Source of the DNA: Fibrobacter succinogenes
GTDB taxonomy: Bacteria > Fibrobacterota > Fibrobacteria > Fibrobacterales > Fibrobacteraceae
Assembly: GCA_902781185.1 (NCBI GenBank)
Contig: CACZII010000003.1
Span: 837 to 34,727 of the forward strand
Direction of reading: 5' to 3'
DNA: 33,891 nucleotides
Shown here one piece after another: positions 7,329 through 25,532 of the stretch (its first letter is position 1; each line of letters opens with the position of its first letter). The notes beneath the pieces are model-generated. The model ran no database searches. It saw only the letters and a list, made by a program, of their open reading frames with translations, and was not told where the DNA came from. The translations under genes and the position numbers were made by a program.

Positions 7329-9626
7329 ATGAAAAACAGACGTTTTGCTTTTCTCGTGTTGGGGGTCGTGGCTGCTGGGTTGTCTTATGCCCATGCGGAC
7401 ATTTCGGGCACCGTGGTGGATAAGTCCAAGGCTCCCATTCACAATGCGGTTGTCAGCATAAAAGGAGCTTCGGCGGTTTTGCCTACAGAGCAGACGCTGT
7501 CCGGTACAGATGGAAAGTTCCTGTTCTCTGGAAAATACGGTTCGGAAGGGTCTTCCGTTTTACGCCCAATTTCTCCGTTCTTGACAGGAAAGTCTATCAA
7601 GGTGGAAATTTCCGATTTGAACGGGCGGATTCTGAAAAGAGGTTCTGTTGAAAATGTTGTCAACTCAAGTCAAGAAATAAAGGCGCTTTTGTCGGGATTG
7701 CCCCGCGGAATGTACCTGGTGGTGGCCAATAATGGCGGCAAAAGAAGCTTGCTCGGCAAGGCCAATGCCGATGGTGGCAGTTCCCGATACACCCAGATAA
7801 ATATGTCCTCTTTGTCCAAGGCTTCTGCGGCAAGCCAGATTCTTGTTGTCCGCAAGGCGGGATTCCTGCCCGAAACGTTGCAGGTAAGTGGCGACAAGGA
7901 TTATGGTTCCATCACTTTGAAAAGGGACCCTATTGAAGATCAAATTGACGAAATCATTGCGGGCATGACCACGGATGAAATGATTGCCCAGATGACGCAG
8001 CCAGAAGTAGGCATGGGTTGTGGAACCTATGCCTGTGGTTCTGCTCTTGAAGGCGGTGGCGGTTATACATCTACATTCTATAAGTCGGCCTGGGCTGAAA
8101 ATATTCCAGTGCTGTATGGCAAGGACAATGTTCATGGCATTGGCGATGTCTCTGGCGCGACGATTTTCCCCCATAACATCGGCCTTGGCGCCACCCGCGA
8201 TTCCGCGTTGGTTCGTAAGATAGGCAAGGCGGTTGCTGTCGAAATGTGGGCGGCCCACATTGACTATAACTTTGCGCCGGCGGTGACGGTTCCCAGGAAT
8301 GAAAAGTGGGGTAGAACTTACGAAGGTTTTGGCGAAAATCCGGAGTTGGTGGCAAGTATGGGAGCTGCCTATATCCGTGGCTTGCAGGGTGACCATTTTG
8401 ATGCGGAGTGGCGTATTCCGGCAACGGCCAAGCACTTTATTGGTGACGGTGCTACAAATGGTGGTGTAGACCGCGGTAATGCCACTTTGACGGACGAAGA
8501 AGTTAGAACTATCCTATTGCCTCCCTATATTGCGGCCGTTGAACAGGGTGTCCAAACGGTTATGGCCAGTTTTAACCAGATTAATGGGGTGCACCAGCAC
8601 GTGGATTCCCTACGGCTTACGGGAATACTCAAGGTTGAACTTGGCTTTGACGGATTTGTGATTGCGGACTGGGAAGGCATTGAAAATTCAAGGACTCCTG
8701 GCGCAACAGATGCCAGCAGTTATTCGGGAGGAACTACCGGTTCCTCGAAAGATGCTGTCAAGAAGGCTATTAATGCCGGTATCGATATGGCCATGGTACC
8801 GAGCTCTTCGGGTGGGTTTATCAGCAACATGAAATCCCTGCTTTCGTCCGGTGATGTTTCTTTGGATAGGGTCAAGGACGCTGTGCGCCGCATATTGCGT
8901 GTAAAGATCCGCGGTGGACGTATTGCCAACCCCAGTGGTCCATCAGCCTATGTGGGTAAGACGGAAAACATCGGTAGTGCAGAACATAGGGCCATTGCCC
9001 GCGAGGCGGTGCAGAAGAGCCTGGTAGTTTTGAAGAATGAAAAGGTTTTGCCATTGTCTAAGACTTCCAAGATTTACTTGACGGGAAATGCCTCCGCAAG
9101 TACGGGGATCCAATGCGGCGGCTGGACTCAGGGCTGGCAAGGTGGCGGTTCTATTCCTGGAGCGACTTCTATCAAGTCCGGATTCAATGAGGTGGCAAGT
9201 GGCGCAAGCGTCTCTTCTGCAAATGATGCCGAGATAATCGTGTATGCCATAGGTGAGTCTGCCTATGCAGAATGGTATGGAGACTTCAGTAATCTTTATT
9301 ACAGTGGAATATCTCTTGGTGGTTATAACGTAAGTTACCATGCCAACCAGATTAACACTTGGAAAAATTCCGGCAAGAAGGTGGTTGTGGTGTTCATTAC
9401 GGGCCGCCCGCTCCCGGTTACCGAGATTATTGAGGCTGCAGATGCCTTTGTGGTGGCTTGGCTGCCCGGTAGTGAAGGTGCCGGTGTGGCAGATGTGCTG
9501 TTTGGGGATGTAAAGCCAACGGGCAAGTTGCCCCATACATGGCCTAAAACTTTGGACCAGATACCCATCAATGACGGTGATGGCAAGGAAGGCCTGTTCC
9601 CCTACGGGTTCGGTCTAACGTATTAA
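7329..9626 (+). CDS. Secreted glycoside hydrolase family 3 beta-glucosidase-like enzyme
   Basis: 765 residues with a signal peptide (cleavage near AHA, about residue 23). Module 1 (about 24-70) resembles a carboxypeptidase-regulatory-like fold (ISGTVVDKSKAPIHNAVVSI). Module 2 (about 80-145) has ISDLNGRILKRG, then LSGLPRGMYLVV, and resembles a type 9 secretion sorting-domain fold. The GH3 N-terminal barrel starts at about 205; it has AKHFIGDGATNGGVDRG and the nucleophile Asp447 in VIADWEG. The C-terminal GH3 domain (about 560-765) has GESAYAEWYGD with the likely acid/base Glu648, and ends at the typical LFPYGFGLTY without a fibronectin domain. A GGAGG ribosome binding site precedes the ATG. 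It probably releases glucose from beta-glucans or cello-oligosaccharides outside the cytoplasm; the exact substrate cannot be read. Confidence 0.93.
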   Translation: MKNRRFAFLVLGVVAAGLSYAHADISGTVVDKSKAPIHNAVVSIKGASAVLPTEQTLSGTDGKFLFSGKYGSEGSSVLRPISPFLTGKSIKVEISDLNGRILKRGSVENVVNSSQEIKALLSGLPRGMYLVVANNGGKRSLLGKANADGGSSRYTQINMSSLSKASAASQILVVRKAGFLPETLQVSGDKDYGSITLKRDPIEDQIDEIIAGMTTDEMIAQMTQPEVGMGCGTYACGSALEGGGGYTSTFYKSAWAENIPVLYGKDNVHGIGDVSGATIFPHNIGLGATRDSALVRKIGKAVAVEMWAAHIDYNFAPAVTVPRNEKWGRTYEGFGENPELVASMGAAYIRGLQGDHFDAEWRIPATAKHFIGDGATNGGVDRGNATLTDEEVRTILLPPYIAAVEQGVQTVMASFNQINGVHQHVDSLRLTGILKVELGFDGFVIADWEGIENSRTPGATDASSYSGGTTGSSKDAVKKAINAGIDMAMVPSSSGGFISNMKSLLSSGDVSLDRVKDAVRRILRVKIRGGRIANPSGPSAYVGKTENIGSAEHRAIAREAVQKSLVVLKNEKVLPLSKTSKIYLTGNASASTGIQCGGWTQGWQGGGSIPGATSIKSGFNEVASGASVSSANDAEIIVYAIGESAYAEWYGDFSNLYYSGISLGGYNVSYHANQINTWKNSGKKVVVVFITGRPLPVTEIIEAADAFVVAWLPGSEGAGVADVLFGDVKPTGKLPHTWPKTLDQIPINDGDGKEGLFPYGFGLTY

Positions 9627-17681: not shown

Positions 17682-18182
17682 TCAGCGGGCATCGGGGTCA
17701 ATCCAGTATCGCAAACGGCCCGTAATGTGCAGATTTGGCAGGCTGTCGCTGCATTTTCCGGAACGGCAGTCCGGGGTGTACAGTTCCAGGTCGGCAGTCC
17801 AGGTAGAGTCGTCCTTCTGGTCAAAACGGACAATGCTGCTGTCAGCAAGGATGGGAGCCTGGGTTAGGCCGCCGTAGTTGAACCAGGAATACTGCTGCAC
17901 AACGGGATTGTCCCCTAGAATGGGCCTGTTCACCATGATGGAGAACTGGTCTCCCCGCTTGCTCTCGCTAGCTCTTGTCCTTACCAGAAAATACCGGTGG
18001 TTGTTCTTGATAAACGGGACTTCCACGTCACTTTCGGCAAGTTCAATGGTGCGTTCGCCTTCTCCGTCAATCTTGTATTTCAGGTAACCGCCACCGTTGG
18101 CCTCCCAGCCGTCGTTGATATCGCTGCAGGCCATCAGCAGAAAAGAGACGGCTAGGCAGATTTTTAGGCGGGAGTTTTGCAT
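17682..18182 (-). CDS. Small predicted lipoprotein of unknown function
   Basis: 166 residues. A signal peptide with lipobox LMAC (Cys at about residue 19) predicts a lipid-anchored protein. The mature part starts SDINDGWEANGGGYLKYKIDG and is rich in beta-prone polar segments, such as HRYFLVRTRASES, WTADLELYTPDC and LHITGRLRYWID. Two further cysteines (TPDCRSGKC) could form a disulfide. I do not recognise a family. It is divergent from the PPTase gene with a 31 bp gap; TAGTTTAG precedes the ATG by 5 nt. Confidence 0.75.
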   Translation of the reverse strand: MQNSRLKICLAVSFLLMACSDINDGWEANGGGYLKYKIDGEGERTIELAESDVEVPFIKNNHRYFLVRTRASESKRGDQFSIMVNRPILGDNPVVQQYSWFNYGGLTQAPILADSSIVRFDQKDDSTWTADLELYTPDCRSGKCSDSLPNLHITGRLRYWIDPDAR

Positions 18183-18213: not shown

Positions 18214-18777
18214 ATGGATGGCGATTTGTTCCCAGTTTCTACTTTGCATGGTACGGTCTATCTGGCCGTTGTTCCAAAGCAAGACCATAGGGCGCACATC
18301 TTCCAGGAATTATCCCGAGCCCTTGATCGCCAGGTGACCGAGCTGGACCTGAAGATAGGGGAGGGCTCGACACGTCCAGAATTTCCGGGGCTTCCTGTAG
18401 ATGCCAACTGGACCCACTCTAAGGAAATCTGCGTGCTGGCCTTTTCCAGGGAATGCCGTGTGGGAATAGATCTGGAATTCCATTCCAGAAATCGCTTAAA
18501 GCTTGCGGAGCGTTTTTTCTCCAGTGTTGAGGTGGAACGTCTGAACCAGACATTACAGAGTGATGGCGCCCCCGCCGCTCAAAACTTGTTCTATACCCTA
18601 TGGTGTCGCAAGGAGGCCTTCTTCAAGTGCCGCGGCGGGGACTTTTTCGAAGGAACCTTACGTAGGCCCATGCTCGAACCCCTCATAGAAGGAGTTTCCT
18701 TGATGAACCTGAATCCGGCCGAATTCGGCATACAGGGAGACTGCTCCCTGTGTCTTGCCACGATGGCTCTAGGCTAG
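18214..18777 (+). CDS. 4'-phosphopantetheinyl transferase (Sfp/AcpT-like)
   Basis: 187 residues from ATG 18214. The magnesium-binding motif VGIDLE (about 85-90) and WCRKEAFFK (about 131-139) are the two signatures of the Sfp-type superfamily; THSKEICVLAFS precedes the first. It transfers 4'-phosphopantetheine from CoA to a carrier-protein serine. No carrier protein, polyketide or peptide synthetase gene is nearby, so the target is unknown; it could be a fatty-acid ACP or a secondary pathway. Its stop codon overlaps the stop codon of the convergent gene (shared CTAG at 18774-18777). Confidence 0.87.
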   Translation: MDGDLFPVSTLHGTVYLAVVPKQDHRAHIFQELSRALDRQVTELDLKIGEGSTRPEFPGLPVDANWTHSKEICVLAFSRECRVGIDLEFHSRNRLKLAERFFSSVEVERLNQTLQSDGAPAAQNLFYTLWCRKEAFFKCRGGDFFEGTLRRPMLEPLIEGVSLMNLNPAEFGIQGDCSLCLATMALG

Positions 18778-19211
18778 TTCTTTACTTCGCTGTTGGCAGG
18801 GCCTGCGCCTGGCTGGGGAGCTTCCAATGCATACAAGGGCAGGGCCGCATATTCCTCGTCATCGATAATCAGGCGGACGATATACTTGTCCGGACGCTCG
18901 ATTTTCAGGCGTTGCATGTTCAGGATCAGGTTCATGGCAGCTGTGTCGAAACCCTTGGCCACAGGCTCAAAGTTAATGTTCGATTCCATGGCGGGAACAA
19001 TGGGGTGGCCGCACACGTCCTCGATGGAAAGTATCAGCTTGTGGACGCCTGCTTCAGCGCGCTGGTAGCGGACCCGGAAGGCTGCTGCACATTGGGGTAT
19101 CACCAGAGGGAACTGTGTAAAGATGCGGTCAAAGGCACCGAGAATATTCAGGCGGCCGCCGGCACCGTTGGCCGTGGCGGCATCGCAAATAGAGGCGATT
19201 TCAACAATCAT
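18774..19211 (-). CDS. DUF6941-like protein
   Basis: 145 residues. The N-terminus MIVEIASICDAATANG, then GRLNILGAFDRIF, FPLVIPQCAAAFRVRYQR and HKLILSIEDVCGHPIVPAME resemble small bacterial proteins annotated DUF6941, whose function is not known to me. No signal peptide or membrane segment is visible, so it is probably cytoplasmic. The start lies only 3 nt after the stop of the giant lipoprotein gene, so translation is probably coupled. The C-terminus is Pro/Ala-rich and disordered (ALEAPQPGAGPANSEVKN). Confidence 0.7.
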   Translation of the reverse strand: MIVEIASICDAATANGAGGRLNILGAFDRIFTQFPLVIPQCAAAFRVRYQRAEAGVHKLILSIEDVCGHPIVPAMESNINFEPVAKGFDTAAMNLILNMQRLKIERPDKYIVRLIIDDEEYAALPLYALEAPQPGAGPANSEVKN

Positions 19212-19214
19212 ATA

Positions 19215-22200
19215 TTAAGGCTTGGTGTTGATAGTCCAGTTTCCAGAAATGTTTTTCATGACAATGGGGCCGTTGTTCTTGCTTGTCGACCCAGAACTTG
19301 GCCATGAAATCATGGAGATGTATACACCTCCATTGTTGTCAATTGCGATTTGGGGGGCAAAACCGTAAAGGTTATATCCGTGACTTGCCTGGAATGGGCC
19401 TTTGAAATATGGGAGCTGATTTTCGCCATAAGGTTTCCAGCTGACGCCATCGAAGGTGTAGGCATGGCAGTGTGAGAAACCACGTCCGTTGTCATCGATG
19501 GCAGCATAGGCCTTGTTACCTTTTGCCGCAATCCGAATATTCGGCGGCGGAGTACCTTCTTTCAAGAGTGTTGTAGAATTGAATGAAAGACTTCCTGACC
19601 TAAGAGACCCCTTCTTTACGTAAACGCCCATCATGTCTACGTTGGAAGTACGATATATATAGCCCATATAGATGTCATTTACGTTATCGGTAGCAAGACT
19701 AATGCTGGCAACTTCATCACCAAGATTACCTGTAGTGGCGGCAGTCGTGTATGGTGGAGTGTTGTAAATCGCATAATAAGACTTATACCTGCTTGAATTG
19801 TCTGTATAGGTTGTAAGTAAAACACCTTCGCTAGAAAGCACAGCATTGACATCTCTGACAGTTACACCCTCGTTGATTACAACGTTATTCCACGTGTTGT
19901 TGCTCCAGTAACTAAAGGTTGGATGGCTATTCTGCGTATAAGCAACCACAAGCATTCCTGAAGTAGGATGGGTGGCCAAGTTCACAGAGGTTACCCCGGC
20001 AAAACCCGTTCCCAATGTTGCCCAAGGCGATGTGCCTCCGCTGGATTTGTAAACTTTCAAATCATTACTAGTGGTGAGAACCGCCATATACAGGTTTCCA
20101 AGACCATTTACCATCCGGATTGCGGTTACGGGGTCTAAGGTGTCCACGGAAATCGAATCTAGAGTGGACCATGCCCCACCAACGTAGTTCTTGGTAACGA
20201 TGTCTCCTGACGATGAAAGGAAGGAAACAGAAAGTCCACCACCGAGAGGGGCGATAGCAGGGGGTGTCCGGTTTGTTGACTTTTGCAGTACCGTATCGCC
20301 ATCTGCCAAGTTTTTCCAAGCTCTGCGGACATAGATGTTACGGCATGTAACTTGGGCCTGGTGCCGTTTCAAGAAAGCAGCGTCGCCGGGGTTGCTAGAA
20401 ACGCTGTCTCTAAAGTCCAGACACATGGAAATGGTCCCCTCTTGGGTAGGCCTTCTGAAGGCTTGGTTGAACTGCGCCATGGCAGTATCAATTGAAGGTT
20501 TACCTGTGGTGTCTCCGAGATAAAAGCCTCCGCCCACATTACTGAACTGCCAATAAAATTCCATGTTATTTGTGTCACCGATAGTGCCAATCTTAGACTG
20601 GAATCCACCCCATTGGGGCGAATAGTAGTAGAGGGCTTCTCCACTTTGTGCTTCGTCTCCACTCCAGGGATAGATTGTGTCCGCTGCGGTAATTTTGCCC
20701 ACAGGAAGGTCGTTGGCCGTGGTAAGCACTTTTACGTGCGTGGTGTCGCGGAATACGAGGCCTGTTAACTTTTCCTCAGCTGAGACAACGCAATACAAAT
20801 CGCGGCCTTGAGAGCTCAATGTCTCGCGGTAGTCATAGAATCGTTCGCCGTTCTTGTAGTAGTCCAACTTTCGAAGTGCCTCTGCAGCCTGCTTGTTGTC
20901 TTTGTAGAAGCATTGCCAACTATACCAGTTGATTCCTTCCCAAACGTTGTTGATAGAAGCGTTCAAAAAGAATATGTCTCCCTGTACGGCGTATATGTGT
21001 GACTCGACAACGGAAATGACTGGCAAATCTGTAGAGTATTTAAGGTACATGGTGGCGGTGACAGCGTTACCGTCGTCGTCGGTAGCGCGTGCAACACAGT
21101 AGTAATCTACCGATGCGCTTGGCGCTGTCCATGTTGTGTCAAAGGAGGATACGGTCTTCCAGTTGTTGGCTATTTCGGTGGTGTTTGCTCCACAGCTCCA
21201 TTCCCGCTTGGCGATGTAGCCCATGGTTCCTTCGTACGGGTCGCGGGCAGTCGCGCTCAGGACGATATCGAAACCGGCACGTATATAGGCTGAATCTCTG
21301 GCAAGGGTCAGTATAGGCGGAGCCAGTTCCACATCGAAGCGTGTGGTGTCGCTGGCCGTAAGGCCGTCATCGTCGGTAACCTGCACAATGCACAGGTAGT
21401 TGCTTTGTGCAGTGTTGGGCATGATGGCGTTGTAGGTGTTCTTACCAGTGCTAGTCAGTTTGTCTAAGATGTGAATGTCGCTACCGGGCCCACAGCCCCA
21501 CTCGTAAGATACAATCCTTCCTGGAAGGTCTGTTTCAGCAGAATCTTTTGCGTTTGCGTATAGGGCCACAGTATCCTTGATGGTTCTTTTGAAGTATTCG
21601 TTCACGGTAACTGTCGGCGGTGCCTTGAATACATTGTAGGTGACTGTGTCAAGCGAATAAAGGGTTGCCAAGTTTGCGTCAAGATCTTTTTCTGCTTCGT
21701 CCACGGCACGCATGACGCAATAGTACTCTCCTGGCGTTGTCGGCATGGTTACGGTTGGTACTTCGCCTTTGCGGCCTTGCCAGGTACTTTGCCAGTTTGA
21801 AACCTTTAGATTGTCCAGGTTGCTTCCGCAGATGTAATCTACGTAGATGCCACCTCCAAGAAGGTTGCTGGCCGTGTATTTCAACTGCTCCCGGTCCTTG
21901 ATGGTGACTCTATCGAATTGGATATCCAAACGTATCGTCGGGATATCCTTGATAACTTTGAACACCATGGTGACTGAGTCCCTCTGGTTGTCGTCGTCCA
22001 TAGCCCATACGTAACACTTGTAGTTGGTTTGCTCGGTATTGGGTAATTGTATTACAAGCGAACTGTCCTTTACCTTTTGGGGCGAGGCAAACGTTGTAAT
22101 ATTGTCGGCTCCTGAGCCGCAGCGCCAGCCGACCTTCTGAATGGTTCCGTACTTGTCCTTGGCGGTGTATTCCACGATATGCGTTGAATTGACTTTCTTG

Positions 22201-24587
22201 GTGATGACGCCTTCGTTGTCATCTACGGTAATGGTCGGGGGGTCGGCAATGACGTTGACCTGCAGGGTATCTGTGGCGACATCCGAGTCATTGTTGGTCA
22301 CCTTGATTGCAATCTTCTTTACACCCACTGTTGTCCAGGACTTTGTGGGACTCAGGTTGTCTGAAGCAAAGCAGTTCTCCGTTACATTAGAACCATCGAT
22401 GCAGGTCCAGGTGACGGTCCTGCCTTCGGAGGCATCGCTGTTGTTGGCGACAACCTCGGTGGATAGCGTGATTACGTCATTCAGGGTAATGGTCGTGTCG
22501 TAGGCGGGGGACTTGATGGTCACCATAGGACCACTACTATAGAAACCGAATCTTACGATATTGGAAATGGCGCCATTGTCTGCAATGGCCTGCATAGTGT
22601 AGCGGGTGTTGCTGACTGCTCCCGGGAGGTTGTCTTTTTGTAGCTGGAGCTGGGCTGTACCGTTAGAGGTGTCCACGTTTATTTGTCGTGGAGAATCCCC
22701 GGGGACATTCGTTTTCCAAGTCACCTTTTTAATCGGCGGGTCCGCCTTTTCGATGATAGCCTTGAAGGTGAGCTTTGCCGACCCACCTGCCATGGCGGAA
22801 CTGGCGTCGTTTACGGTAATGACCATATTCGTGGCAGATATGGTAAACGTAATGGTCGTGTCGGTGTGGTATCCAGCACTATCGGTAGCGGTAAGCTTGA
22901 AGCTGTAGTCTCCGTCAGGAAGGCCGAATAGGTCGACACTCCAGGCATAGCTGGTCATGTTAGAGAATTTGCACTTGTCGCTCTTTGCACTGCAGGTTTC
23001 CTTGCCCAGTACTGCTGTCGCCGTCTTGACCTGGGAGCCGTAGTCGCTGAACCTTCCCGATATGGTAAAGGCGCGGGTTGAGATGGTATCTTCAACGCCC
23101 TTGATGTTGTAGATTCTGGGAGGAGCGGGGTCCTTCAGCAAAATGGGAGGCAGTTCCTTCTCGTCGCCGGCGTTGATATTGGGAGTCCTGGTTGTGACCT
23201 TTACGAAGCCCCTGCCGGTTTCGTCCGTGGCGGTCAGCCTGAAGGTCCCTGCGGGCAGGTCGGAAACCCTGAATTCACCCTTAGGCGAAGTCATGGCCGT
23301 GTAGATGTTGTTTGTGTCGGCGATGTTCACCAGGGCAATCTTGATGCCTTCGTGATTGGAAAGCCCTTCGAACTTGGCCGTTCCCGTGAAGTCGCAGGTA
23401 GACTTGCTGGGGCCCAGATAGAAGTACCTCGGGCGTTTTCCCTTGCTGGTCTTTATCTTTTCGGCCACAACGGTATCGTAGCCGTCGGTCACCCACACAT
23501 CCCAGGAGAAGTACCTTCCTGTAAAGCCGAGCTTTTTCAAGGCGTTCTCGCCGTCTTCAATGACGGCGAAGCTGGTGGAGGTGCTGTTCTTCAGTACCAG
23601 GTCGTATACGTTGGACAGGTTCAGGTCGCTTTCCTGGTTGTCAGGCGTAGGAGCGACGCGGACATAGTACCTTAGCTGGTCTTCGTTGTCCTTGTCGTGG
23701 CCCTCGTAGAACAGTCGGAAGGACTCTACCGTGTCGCTTATCCTCTGTTGGTCGTCGGGGCCCAGAATCTTGATGGTGGGCAGCTGATTAAAATGCAGGT
23801 TAACGCTGTCCTTGGTGGTATTGTTGTCGTCATCGGTGACGAAGATGTAAATCTTTTGGTTCCCCAGGCTGTCCGTGAGGGTGGAATCATAGGGGATAGT
23901 GATAAGCAGGCTGTCCGAGAATTCGTCTTTGGTGTATTTCCAGTCCTTGGGTTCCTTCTTGCCCTTGGCATCTACATCCACCTTGAACGAGGTAATGGTT
24001 CCGAAGGAGTCCAGAGCCAGCACGGGGAAGGTTATAGAACTCTTTGCTCTGGTCCATAGGGTGTCTTTGGGAACTCCAAGGTAGGGTGGTGTGTTGATGA
24101 CCCTAATGAACTGGTCCTTGCCTGCAGTATCTGTTGCGCTGTTTCCGTCTACGGCTACGAATAGGGGTGAATATACGCCTTCTTTAAAATAGACCCAGGA
24201 CTGGGGAGTGGCGTTGTGACCCGTAACCAGGGTCTTTTTCATCTTGTCTTTTCCCTTGCCCGTGGTATCCTTCACGAGGCTATCTAGGATCCACTGGTAC
24301 AGATAAATCTTGTTGGCGTTATAGCGTAAGAAACCCATCATATGGATGGTGTCGCCGATGGTGACGGTAACGGTATCGCTAACGATAACGGAGTCGGGGT
24401 TAGGCAGGTTGATAATGGAGTCGGCAAAGGCATCTGGGTTTTCAAAGGCTGCACGCTGGACGAACACCACGGAATGGTTGTTCCGCAAGTTCACGTTTTC
24501 CTTGATGGAAGACTCCCTGGAACAGTTGATCAGGGACATCATGCACAAGGCAAGCCCGAATAAAAAAAACAAACTTTTTAACCGCAT
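19215..24587 (-). CDS. Giant surface lipoprotein with tandem cysteine-paired Ig/PKD-like repeats
   Basis: 1790 residues. The signal peptide ends in a lipobox-like LINC (Cys at about 22), so it is probably a lipid-anchored surface or periplasmic protein. Residues about 60-390 hold PKD/Ig-like modules (FVTDDDNNTTKDSV, LPTIKILGPDD). About 390-500 is a carboxypeptidase-regulatory-like fold (FTGTAKFEG, SPKGEFRVSDLPAGTFRLTA), and about 505-590 an Ig-like module. From about 680 to 1270 come tandem modules of roughly 100 residues. Five of them have one Cys in a W/Y-x-C strand (about 823, 917, 1031, 1129, 1223) and a second 34-40 residues later in a YxC...A/VxDDD strand. About 1426-1790 contains repeated short strands, such as LYMAVLTTSNDLKVY, suggesting a beta-propeller. 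AGAGGA precedes the ATG. The ligand is unknown. Confidence 0.8.
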   Translation of the reverse strand: MRLKSLFFLFGLALCMMSLINCSRESSIKENVNLRNNHSVVFVQRAAFENPDAFADSIINLPNPDSVIVSDTVTVTIGDTIHMMGFLRYNANKIYLYQWILDSLVKDTTGKGKDKMKKTLVTGHNATPQSWVYFKEGVYSPLFVAVDGNSATDTAGKDQFIRVINTPPYLGVPKDTLWTRAKSSITFPVLALDSFGTITSFKVDVDAKGKKEPKDWKYTKDEFSDSLLITIPYDSTLTDSLGNQKIYIFVTDDDNNTTKDSVNLHFNQLPTIKILGPDDQQRISDTVESFRLFYEGHDKDNEDQLRYYVRVAPTPDNQESDLNLSNVYDLVLKNSTSTSFAVIEDGENALKKLGFTGRYFSWDVWVTDGYDTVVAEKIKTSKGKRPRYFYLGPSKSTCDFTGTAKFEGLSNHEGIKIALVNIADTNNIYTAMTSPKGEFRVSDLPAGTFRLTATDETGRGFVKVTTRTPNINAGDEKELPPILLKDPAPPRIYNIKGVEDTISTRAFTISGRFSDYGSQVKTATAVLGKETCSAKSDKCKFSNMTSYAWSVDLFGLPDGDYSFKLTATDSAGYHTDTTITFTISATNMVITVNDASSAMAGGSAKLTFKAIIEKADPPIKKVTWKTNVPGDSPRQINVDTSNGTAQLQLQKDNLPGAVSNTRYTMQAIADNGAISNIVRFGFYSSGPMVTIKSPAYDTTITLNDVITLSTEVVANNSDASEGRTVTWTCIDGSNVTENCFASDNLSPTKSWTTVGVKKIAIKVTNNDSDVATDTLQVNVIADPPTITVDDNEGVITKKVNSTHIVEYTAKDKYGTIQKVGWRCGSGADNITTFASPQKVKDSSLVIQLPNTEQTNYKCYVWAMDDDNQRDSVTMVFKVIKDIPTIRLDIQFDRVTIKDREQLKYTASNLLGGGIYVDYICGSNLDNLKVSNWQSTWQGRKGEVPTVTMPTTPGEYYCVMRAVDEAEKDLDANLATLYSLDTVTYNVFKAPPTVTVNEYFKRTIKDTVALYANAKDSAETDLPGRIVSYEWGCGPGSDIHILDKLTSTGKNTYNAIMPNTAQSNYLCIVQVTDDDGLTASDTTRFDVELAPPILTLARDSAYIRAGFDIVLSATARDPYEGTMGYIAKREWSCGANTTEIANNWKTVSSFDTTWTAPSASVDYYCVARATDDDGNAVTATMYLKYSTDLPVISVVESHIYAVQGDIFFLNASINNVWEGINWYSWQCFYKDNKQAAEALRKLDYYKNGERFYDYRETLSSQGRDLYCVVSAEEKLTGLVFRDTTHVKVLTTANDLPVGKITAADTIYPWSGDEAQSGEALYYYSPQWGGFQSKIGTIGDTNNMEFYWQFSNVGGGFYLGDTTGKPSIDTAMAQFNQAFRRPTQEGTISMCLDFRDSVSSNPGDAAFLKRHQAQVTCRNIYVRRAWKNLADGDTVLQKSTNRTPPAIAPLGGGLSVSFLSSSGDIVTKNYVGGAWSTLDSISVDTLDPVTAIRMVNGLGNLYMAVLTTSNDLKVYKSSGGTSPWATLGTGFAGVTSVNLATHPTSGMLVVAYTQNSHPTFSYWSNNTWNNVVINEGVTVRDVNAVLSSEGVLLTTYTDNSSRYKSYYAIYNTPPYTTAATTGNLGDEVASISLATDNVNDIYMGYIYRTSNVDMMGVYVKKGSLRSGSLSFNSTTLLKEGTPPPNIRIAAKGNKAYAAIDDNGRGFSHCHAYTFDGVSWKPYGENQLPYFKGPFQASHGYNLYGFAPQIAIDNNGGVYISMISWPSSGSTSKNNGPIVMKNISGNWTINTKP

Positions 24588-24701: not shown

Positions 24702-25532
24702 ATGGAGAATATTCCACTTTGGTATGGCTTAATCCTCTTTTTTGCGTTGGGCGCCTGCATAGGCAGTTTTTACAACGTGATTGTTTACCGGATGCCTCGC
24801 GGAATGTCCCTGATTAACCCGCCTTCTCATTGCCCCTTGTGTAAGAAGCGGATTCCTGTCCGCTACAATTTACCTATCGTGGGGTGGCTCTGGTTGCGCG
24901 GGAAGAGTGCTTGCTGCAAGCAACCCATTAGTGTGATTTACCCTATCGGTGAAGGCCTTTGTGGTTTGCTGGGTGCCCTTGCTCTTTTTTCTGCCAACTG
25001 GAATGTGGGGTGGACTGCTCCCGTGACCAACTGGGTCGATTCCCTGGCCATGCTCTGGCTGCTCCTGGGCTTGTATCCTGTGTGTGCTGTTGATATTAAG
25101 TACAAACTAATACCCGATTCCATCTCGGTCGGGGGTATCGTGGTGGGCCTTGTGCTTTCCATGTTCCCGGGGGGAGTTTCGCCCTTTGGAAGTCTGATTG
25201 GTGCCGTAGGTGCCGGTGGTGGCCTTTGGCTTTTGGGCTTTATTGCCTCAAAAATCCTGAAAAAGGACGCCATGGGTTTTGGAGATGTTAAACTGCTGGC
25301 GGGCTATGGTGCCCTCATGGGGTTGAATGCTGCTGTAGAGGTGTTAATCCTTGCCGCCTTGCTTGGCATTCTGGTCATGATTCCCTGGGCAAAAATCATG
25401 GAAAAGAGGGGTTTCGCCGATGGTACAGGTCAGATCCCCTTTGGCCCGTTCCTTGCCGTCTCGGCTCCGGTCATGTACCTGTGGGGCCAGGACCTGTTAG
25501 ACTTGTACGTACGCTTTGTCGTTGGTGAATAG
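24702..25532 (+). CDS. Prepilin peptidase / type IV leader peptidase (A24 family)
   Basis: 276 residues, an integral membrane aspartic protease that cleaves (and in many members N-methylates) type IV pilin and type II secretion pseudopilin leaders. The N-terminal domain has GSFYNVIVYRMPRGMSL and Cys44/Cys47 (HCPLC). The second zinc pair is altered: Ser69 stands where the first Cys is expected, with Cys71 and Cys72 adjacent. PISVIYPIGEG leads to the peptidase part with catalytic Asp in AVDIKYKLIPD and in GFGDVKLLAGYGALMG. Several hydrophobic helices cover the rest. No pilin gene is nearby. GGGAGC about 7 nt before the ATG can act as ribosome binding site. Confidence 0.93.
   Translation: MENIPLWYGLILFFALGACIGSFYNVIVYRMPRGMSLINPPSHCPLCKKRIPVRYNLPIVGWLWLRGKSACCKQPISVIYPIGEGLCGLLGALALFSANWNVGWTAPVTNWVDSLAMLWLLLGLYPVCAVDIKYKLIPDSISVGGIVVGLVLSMFPGGVSPFGSLIGAVGAGGGLWLLGFIASKILKKDAMGFGDVKLLAGYGALMGLNAAVEVLILAALLGILVMIPWAKIMEKRGFADGTGQIPFGPFLAVSAPVMYLWGQDLLDLYVRFVVGE

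Follow-up and report, generated by a model that had tools for sequence, protein, structure and literature searches.

The 33,891-nt stretch of Fibrobacter succinogenes DNA analysed here (the window, to which all positions refer) encodes a giant predicted lipoprotein with five tandem modules, which sequence comparisons assign to a variant of the known PKD domain rather than to a new fold or a new repeat family. Each module carries one pair of invariant cysteines, and the array is likely to form a disulfide-stabilised stalk. The features of the protein and its immediate neighbors are listed in Table 1. The lipid anchor is predicted from the signal peptide and the lipobox, whose cysteine was found in every complete sequence of the orthologue alignment, and the fold of the modules and the C-terminal propeller are likewise predicted. 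The proposal of the earlier sequence-only reading, that the modules build a stalk-like array on a lipoprotein, is supported.

Table 1. Features of the giant lipoprotein gene and of its flanking genes in the window
Feature	Position	Strand	Basis or remark
DUF6941 gene, directly downstream of the lipoprotein gene (3 bp gap)	18774..19211	-	Pfam PF22091; adjoins in 40/40 orthologous loci
Giant lipoprotein gene, 1790 aa	19215..24587	-	ORF; lipobox Cys22, mature start CSRESS
Predicted C-terminal seven-bladed β-propeller head, residues ~1444-1779	19251..20258	-	AlphaFold2, Foldseek
Module 5, Cys1226/Cys1266	20712..21026	-	Most diverged
Module 4, Cys1132/Cys1164	21027..21317	-	
Module 3, Cys1032/Cys1066	21318..21617	-	Best PKD match
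Module 2, Cys920/Cys957	21618..21947	-	
Module 1, Cys823/Cys858	21948..22244	-	
Module 0, PKD-like	22245..22526	-	Cys729 equivalent to Cys1, no Cys2; likely partner loop Cys739
Carboxypeptidase-regulatory-like domain, residues 413-477	23157..23351	-	Pfam PF13620, E 3e-6, just under curated cut-off
Signal peptide and lipobox, residues 1-22	24522..24587	-	From sequence; Cys22 in 31/31
Prepilin peptidase (A24) gene, divergent, upstream	24702..25532	+	In 38/40 orthologous loci

The sequence-only reading had described five tandem modules, each with the pattern W/Y-x-C-G followed after 34–40 residues by Y-x-C-x-x-x-A-x-D-D-D. The five modules and their cysteine pairs are confirmed, the residue numbers given earlier being 0–3 off: the codons of the ten paired cysteines lie between 20790 and 22121 on the minus strand, the first cysteine of the pair (Cys1) recurs at intervals of 97, 112, 100 and 94 residues, and it is separated from the second one (Cys2) by 35, 37, 34, 32 and 40 residues in modules 1 to 5, respectively. 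The motif itself is looser than claimed: W/Y-x-C-G occurs in four modules out of five and is missing from module 5 (WQCF), and the DDD triplet is present in three modules and absent from the remainder. The cysteine pattern is not due to chance, as an expression closely similar to the claimed motif, slightly narrower than it, was matched 5 times, compared to a mean of 0.011 in 5000 residue shuffles.

The profile-profile analysis (31 orthologues) identified a clear relationship among modules 1–4 (E-values from ~1e-16 to 1e-31). These modules still match one another when every cysteine is masked (E-values from ~1e-12 to 1e-28); hence the cysteines themselves do not account for the homology. The profile of module 5 matches only those of modules 3 and 4, and module 0, preceding the array, belongs to the same homologous set as modules 1–5. 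The Pfam family PF22352 (K319L-like_PKD) was matched with the score of 31.7 bits (cut-off: 27), with the best stretch (residues 1005–1082) in module 3, and the relatives identified by sequence in the PDB include the PKD domains of Clostridium collagenases, a chitodextrinase, other PKD domains and KIAA0319L. With the known PKD domains (PF22352, PF18911; ColG/ColH, 4jrw, 4aqo and 2y72 in the PDB) the modules share, in addition to the sequence similarity above the cut-off, the same sandwich, a strand C with its core Trp, and a strand F of the form Y-x-x-x-x ahead of a D-D or D-G turn. They differ from them in the alignment to the collagenase PKD domain by the presence of Cys1 in place of the Phe of the WDFGDG motif and of Cys2 in place of the first Val of GxYxVxLxVxD. 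Consequently, the modules exhibit W-x-C-G in place of WDFGDG, with the Trp retained, the Phe replaced by Cys and the second half missing. WDFGDG is a hallmark of the collagenase-type PKD domains and not a Pfam requirement for PF22352, among whose members it varies widely, so the motif was not treated as defining for that family. The ligands of the collagenase-type Ca2+ site (the Asp pair of DxDG and the strand F Asp) are only partly kept: the Asp following strand F is present in most modules, and the first Asp pair is incomplete. Comparison of the strand content agrees with a two-sheet Ig-like sandwich (strands A/B/E and A'/C/D/F/G), as the modules are all-β in the AlphaFold2 model and Foldseek retrieves Ig/PKD arrays.

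The earlier proposal of an Ig/PKD-like sandwich that is repeated and bears a conserved Cys pair is supported, while the suggestion of an undescribed repeat family is not, because the modules score above the Pfam cut-off for K319L-like_PKD and align to the collagenase PKD domains. Bacterial PKD arrays usually contain no cysteine and depend on Ca2+ and on packing. The claim that Cys pairs are unusual in such arrays holds, and the pair appears to be restricted to a single bacterial family; searches of Pfam, the PDB and the literature yielded no account of PKD domains with paired cysteines, and papers that mention Fibrobacter together with PKD and Cys were not relevant. The search for a DNA pattern encoding W-x-C-G...Y-x-C-x5-DDD across 84,980 species, which misses most true cases since it demands particular codons, returned ten Fibrobacter records and one from Latescibacterota. 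The latter is a chance match with no in-frame motif.

In the crystal structures of collagenase PKD domains, strands A', C, D, F and G form one sheet, the strand F Tyr forms a Tyr corner, and a conserved Trp lies in the core (PMC4356367). Mapped onto these structures by homology, Cys1 falls in strand C and Cys2 in strand F of the same sheet, and as the end of strand C is near the start of strand F, a bond between them would be cross-strand and intra-sheet. The Ig-type pin between two sheets envisaged in the sequence-only reading is therefore not supported (PMC4356367): the alignment places the upstream cysteine in strand C, behind the core Trp, and not in strand B. The modules resemble the Ig superfamily in the two-sheet sandwich and in the Y-x-C of strand F, whose Tyr occupies the Tyr-corner position, but differ in that the Ig disulfide joins strands B and F of different sheets, whereas here the partner cysteine lies in strand C of the same sheet. 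The AlphaFold2 model of residues 686–1292, built with 31 orthologues, has a mean pLDDT of 88.8 and a pTM of 0.45, a low pTM being expected for domains strung together with no fixed orientation to one another. According to the strand limits in this model, the sum of the two Cys positions matches the register set by where strand C starts and strand F ends to within 0–1 residue in all five modules (offsets 0–5 at the other strand end). The model is compatible with Cys1 and Cys2 lying opposite each other in all five modules, and the pair is probably cross-linked inside the module.

The nearest known counterpart of such a bond is found in CD4 domain 2, where the disulfide (Cys130-Cys159) joins strands C and F. 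It is an intra-sheet inter-strand bond between the same strand pair as that proposed for the modules, whose Cys positions and modeled register would fit it. CD4, however, is an animal receptor with a single domain of this kind, while the window protein has five consecutive ones in a bacterial stalk; no homology is claimed, and the bond in the modules is only proposed. The Foldseek search with the whole array identified Ig/PKD-type arrays, the best match being GhpA, the grappling-hook protein of Aureispira, likewise a bacterial surface protein with a long Ig-like array. The low overall TM-score and 14% identity limit this resemblance to an array of similar sandwiches.

The AlphaFold2 model of the C-terminal 498 residues (pTM 0.84) matches the LGI1 EPTP domain, the PLL/PHL lectins and sialidases in Foldseek searches (E-values from 3e-11 to 1e-7). 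The head is predicted to be a seven-bladed β-propeller with a lectin/sialidase-like fold, the number of blades having been read from the predicted strands and from the Foldseek matches to seven-bladed lectins. The identities to the Photorhabdus PLL/PHL lectins, sialidase propellers and LGI1 EPTP are about 10–14%, and the comparison covers the fold. The head may bind a ligand, and we infer surface exposure and an adhesin-like role of the protein from its architecture. The main text of the report on the envelope proteome of F. succinogenes S85 lists lipoproteins with carboxypeptidase-regulatory domains and no PKD protein, so that, as far as this text goes, the giant lipoprotein is not tied to an expressed protein (PMC6851124).

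Orthologues were found in 31 of the 37 genomes of the genus searched, counting that of the window. All ten paired cysteines are present in 31/31 of these sequences as well as in 10/10 orthologues (one of them a fragment) from three further genera. They are thus fully conserved across four genera of a single family, in 41 orthologues with protein identities of about 34–74%. Of the 12 Cys columns in the module region, 11 are invariant, compared to 77 of all 607 columns (hypergeometric P ~8e-10). The cysteines of module 0 are conserved as well, Cys729 in 31/31 orthologues and Cys739 in 27/31. The four exceptions (L058, L059, L061 and L067), which form one Fibrobacter clade, retain Cys729 without Cys739. 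They possess a cysteine near the equivalent of residue 953, which is shared by L036-L039; the loss of Cys739 together with this additional cysteine suggests that the partner in module 0 has changed or is missing. Cysteines elsewhere in the protein vary, and those at 1389/1415, 543/549, 532/539, 107/116 and 137/140 are present or absent as both members of the pair in 31/31 orthologues. Two of these five column pairs underwent at least 2 changes each on the tree and the other three changed once. These are few independent events, yet the pattern is that expected from disulfide bonding. The total number of cysteines in the mature protein is even in 13/31 orthologues; hence not every cysteine is paired.

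Outside the family, the distribution of the two cysteines is very different. Among 86 modules from other families of Fibrobacterota, a sample biased towards Cys2 since a part of it was collected through its resemblance to the window protein, 44 have Cys2 only and 40 have neither cysteine; of the remaining two, one carries both and the other Cys1 alone. Modules collected with the Pfam profile alone comprise 15 with Cys2 only (nine of them from one protein), 27 with neither, one with Cys1 only and none with both. The Cys1 position outside the family is mostly occupied by Ile, Phe, Val or Leu, and 42 of the 44 Cys2-only modules contain no other cysteine, so a conserved cysteine need not be engaged in a disulfide there. 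Inside the family, 190 modules have both cysteines, 39 have neither, five have Cys1 only (module 0, with Cys729 and Cys739 as its other candidate partner, is a known case) and none has Cys2 only. On these sequence data, the simplest reading is that the lone strand F cysteine is old and that this family's lineage gained Cys1. The PKD array of one protein (L127, G091:C204; a 1573-aa ORF in frame +2) offers a natural counterpart with lone cysteines to the window protein: it has nine PKD modules, each with a single cysteine in strand F and none at the strand C position.

The search for a DsbA-like enzyme, which the sequence-only reading had suggested, revealed in the same genome a DsbA-family lipoprotein with the CPYC motif and the cis-Pro loop GTPNF (G000:C1:24000-30000, L075), and PF01323 is matched above the cut-off in 39/41 genomes of the genus. 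DsbD was found in 19/21 genomes of the genus and not in the incomplete genome of the window, and neither DsbB nor VKOR (PF02600, PF07884) was identified in any of 41 genomes of the genus, although the positive controls were detected; the search thus yielded no partner that would reoxidise the DsbA-like protein. The latter could also serve another thiol role.

With a fair degree of confidence, we propose that the protein is a PKD stalk with a propeller head, in which a lipid-anchored, elongated chain of sandwich domains would hold out the head. The cysteine at the end of strand C and that near the start of strand F would bond within each module, stiffening the five modules by intradomain cross-strand disulfides into a segment just before the head that resists force and proteases. 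These bonds would be made in the cell envelope by the DsbA-like thiol oxidase, and the pair would have arisen in the lineage leading to the family of Fibrobacter by the gain of the strand C cysteine opposite the older, lone cysteine of strand F. Or perhaps the cysteines are buried and reduced, kept for the packing of the core and conserved without a bond, like the lone Cys2 of other families? The numerous Cys2-only modules that contain no other cysteine indicate that it works unpaired, and no DsbB or VKOR was found in the genus. We regard this as rather unlikely, given that both Cys1 and Cys2 are invariant in five modules of 41 orthologues, that the 190 two-cysteine modules of the family are set against no Cys2-only module, and that several other cysteines of the protein change strictly in twos. 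Disulfides between neighboring modules or between two chains, which two cysteines per module in a tandem array would permit, appear very improbable, because the modeled register places the two cysteines of each module opposite each other and the mapping to PKD structures puts both on the inward face.

A further question is whether the bond, once formed, is permanent. A reversible, redox-active cross-strand disulfide, as proposed for CD4 domain 2, could switch the stiffness of the stalk or the presentation of the head with the redox state of the envelope. Fibrobacter is anaerobic, which counts in favor of such a switch, and the genus possesses both the DsbA-like protein and DsbD. The strand pair is that of the bond in CD4 domain 2. 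The inward position of the cysteines also recalls CD4 domain 2, whose inward-pointing inter-strand disulfide is reduced by thioredoxin (PMC3352085). The full invariance of the pair in five modules, however, fits a structural role equally well, and we consider the switch improbable. We would give as little credence to a scheme that combines these elements, in which the strand C-F disulfides locking the five PKD domains are reversibly reduced and re-formed in an anaerobic envelope by Dsb proteins that operate without either DsbB or VKOR, making the mechanics of the stalk redox-responsive, with Cys1 added opposite an older, buried lone Cys2. The structural disulfide remains our preferred reading. 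The invariant pair in five modules, together with the lone-Cys relatives, provides a natural series for the gain of a cross-strand disulfide in a sandwich domain. It also draws attention to an unstudied lipoprotein with a predicted propeller head in Fibrobacter of the rumen and gut, which are major degraders of plant fibre, and suggests that disulfides are formed in the envelope of anaerobes without a recognisable DsbB or VKOR.

No second protein with such modules was found in the same genome, which is 72% complete, and NCBIfam contains no family for the giant lipoprotein or for its two neighbor proteins. The analysis of the genomic neighborhood revealed a conserved context (Table 1); at least one of the two loci without the prepilin peptidase gene is on a contig that ends too early. 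In the six Fibrobacter genomes without an orthologue (L143-L148), the flanking genes are directly adjacent, their matches lying about 70 bp apart, and the tree of the two flanking proteins groups these genomes in one clade with full support. As the gene occupies the same slot in other genera of the family, its absence is best read as a single loss, which implies that the protein is dispensable in some lineages. The DUF6941 gene, for which no literature was found, is kept where the giant gene was lost; hence its role is not tied to the latter. A small predicted lipoprotein of 166 aa (17682-18182, minus strand), with no match in Pfam or NCBIfam, is encoded close to the giant gene in most of the orthologous loci and is also kept in the clade that lost it. 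Elsewhere in the window, a GH3 protein (7329-9626, plus strand) shows a weak match to the type IX secretion C-terminal sorting domain at residues 88–139, i.e. near its N-terminus, an odd place for a sorting tail.
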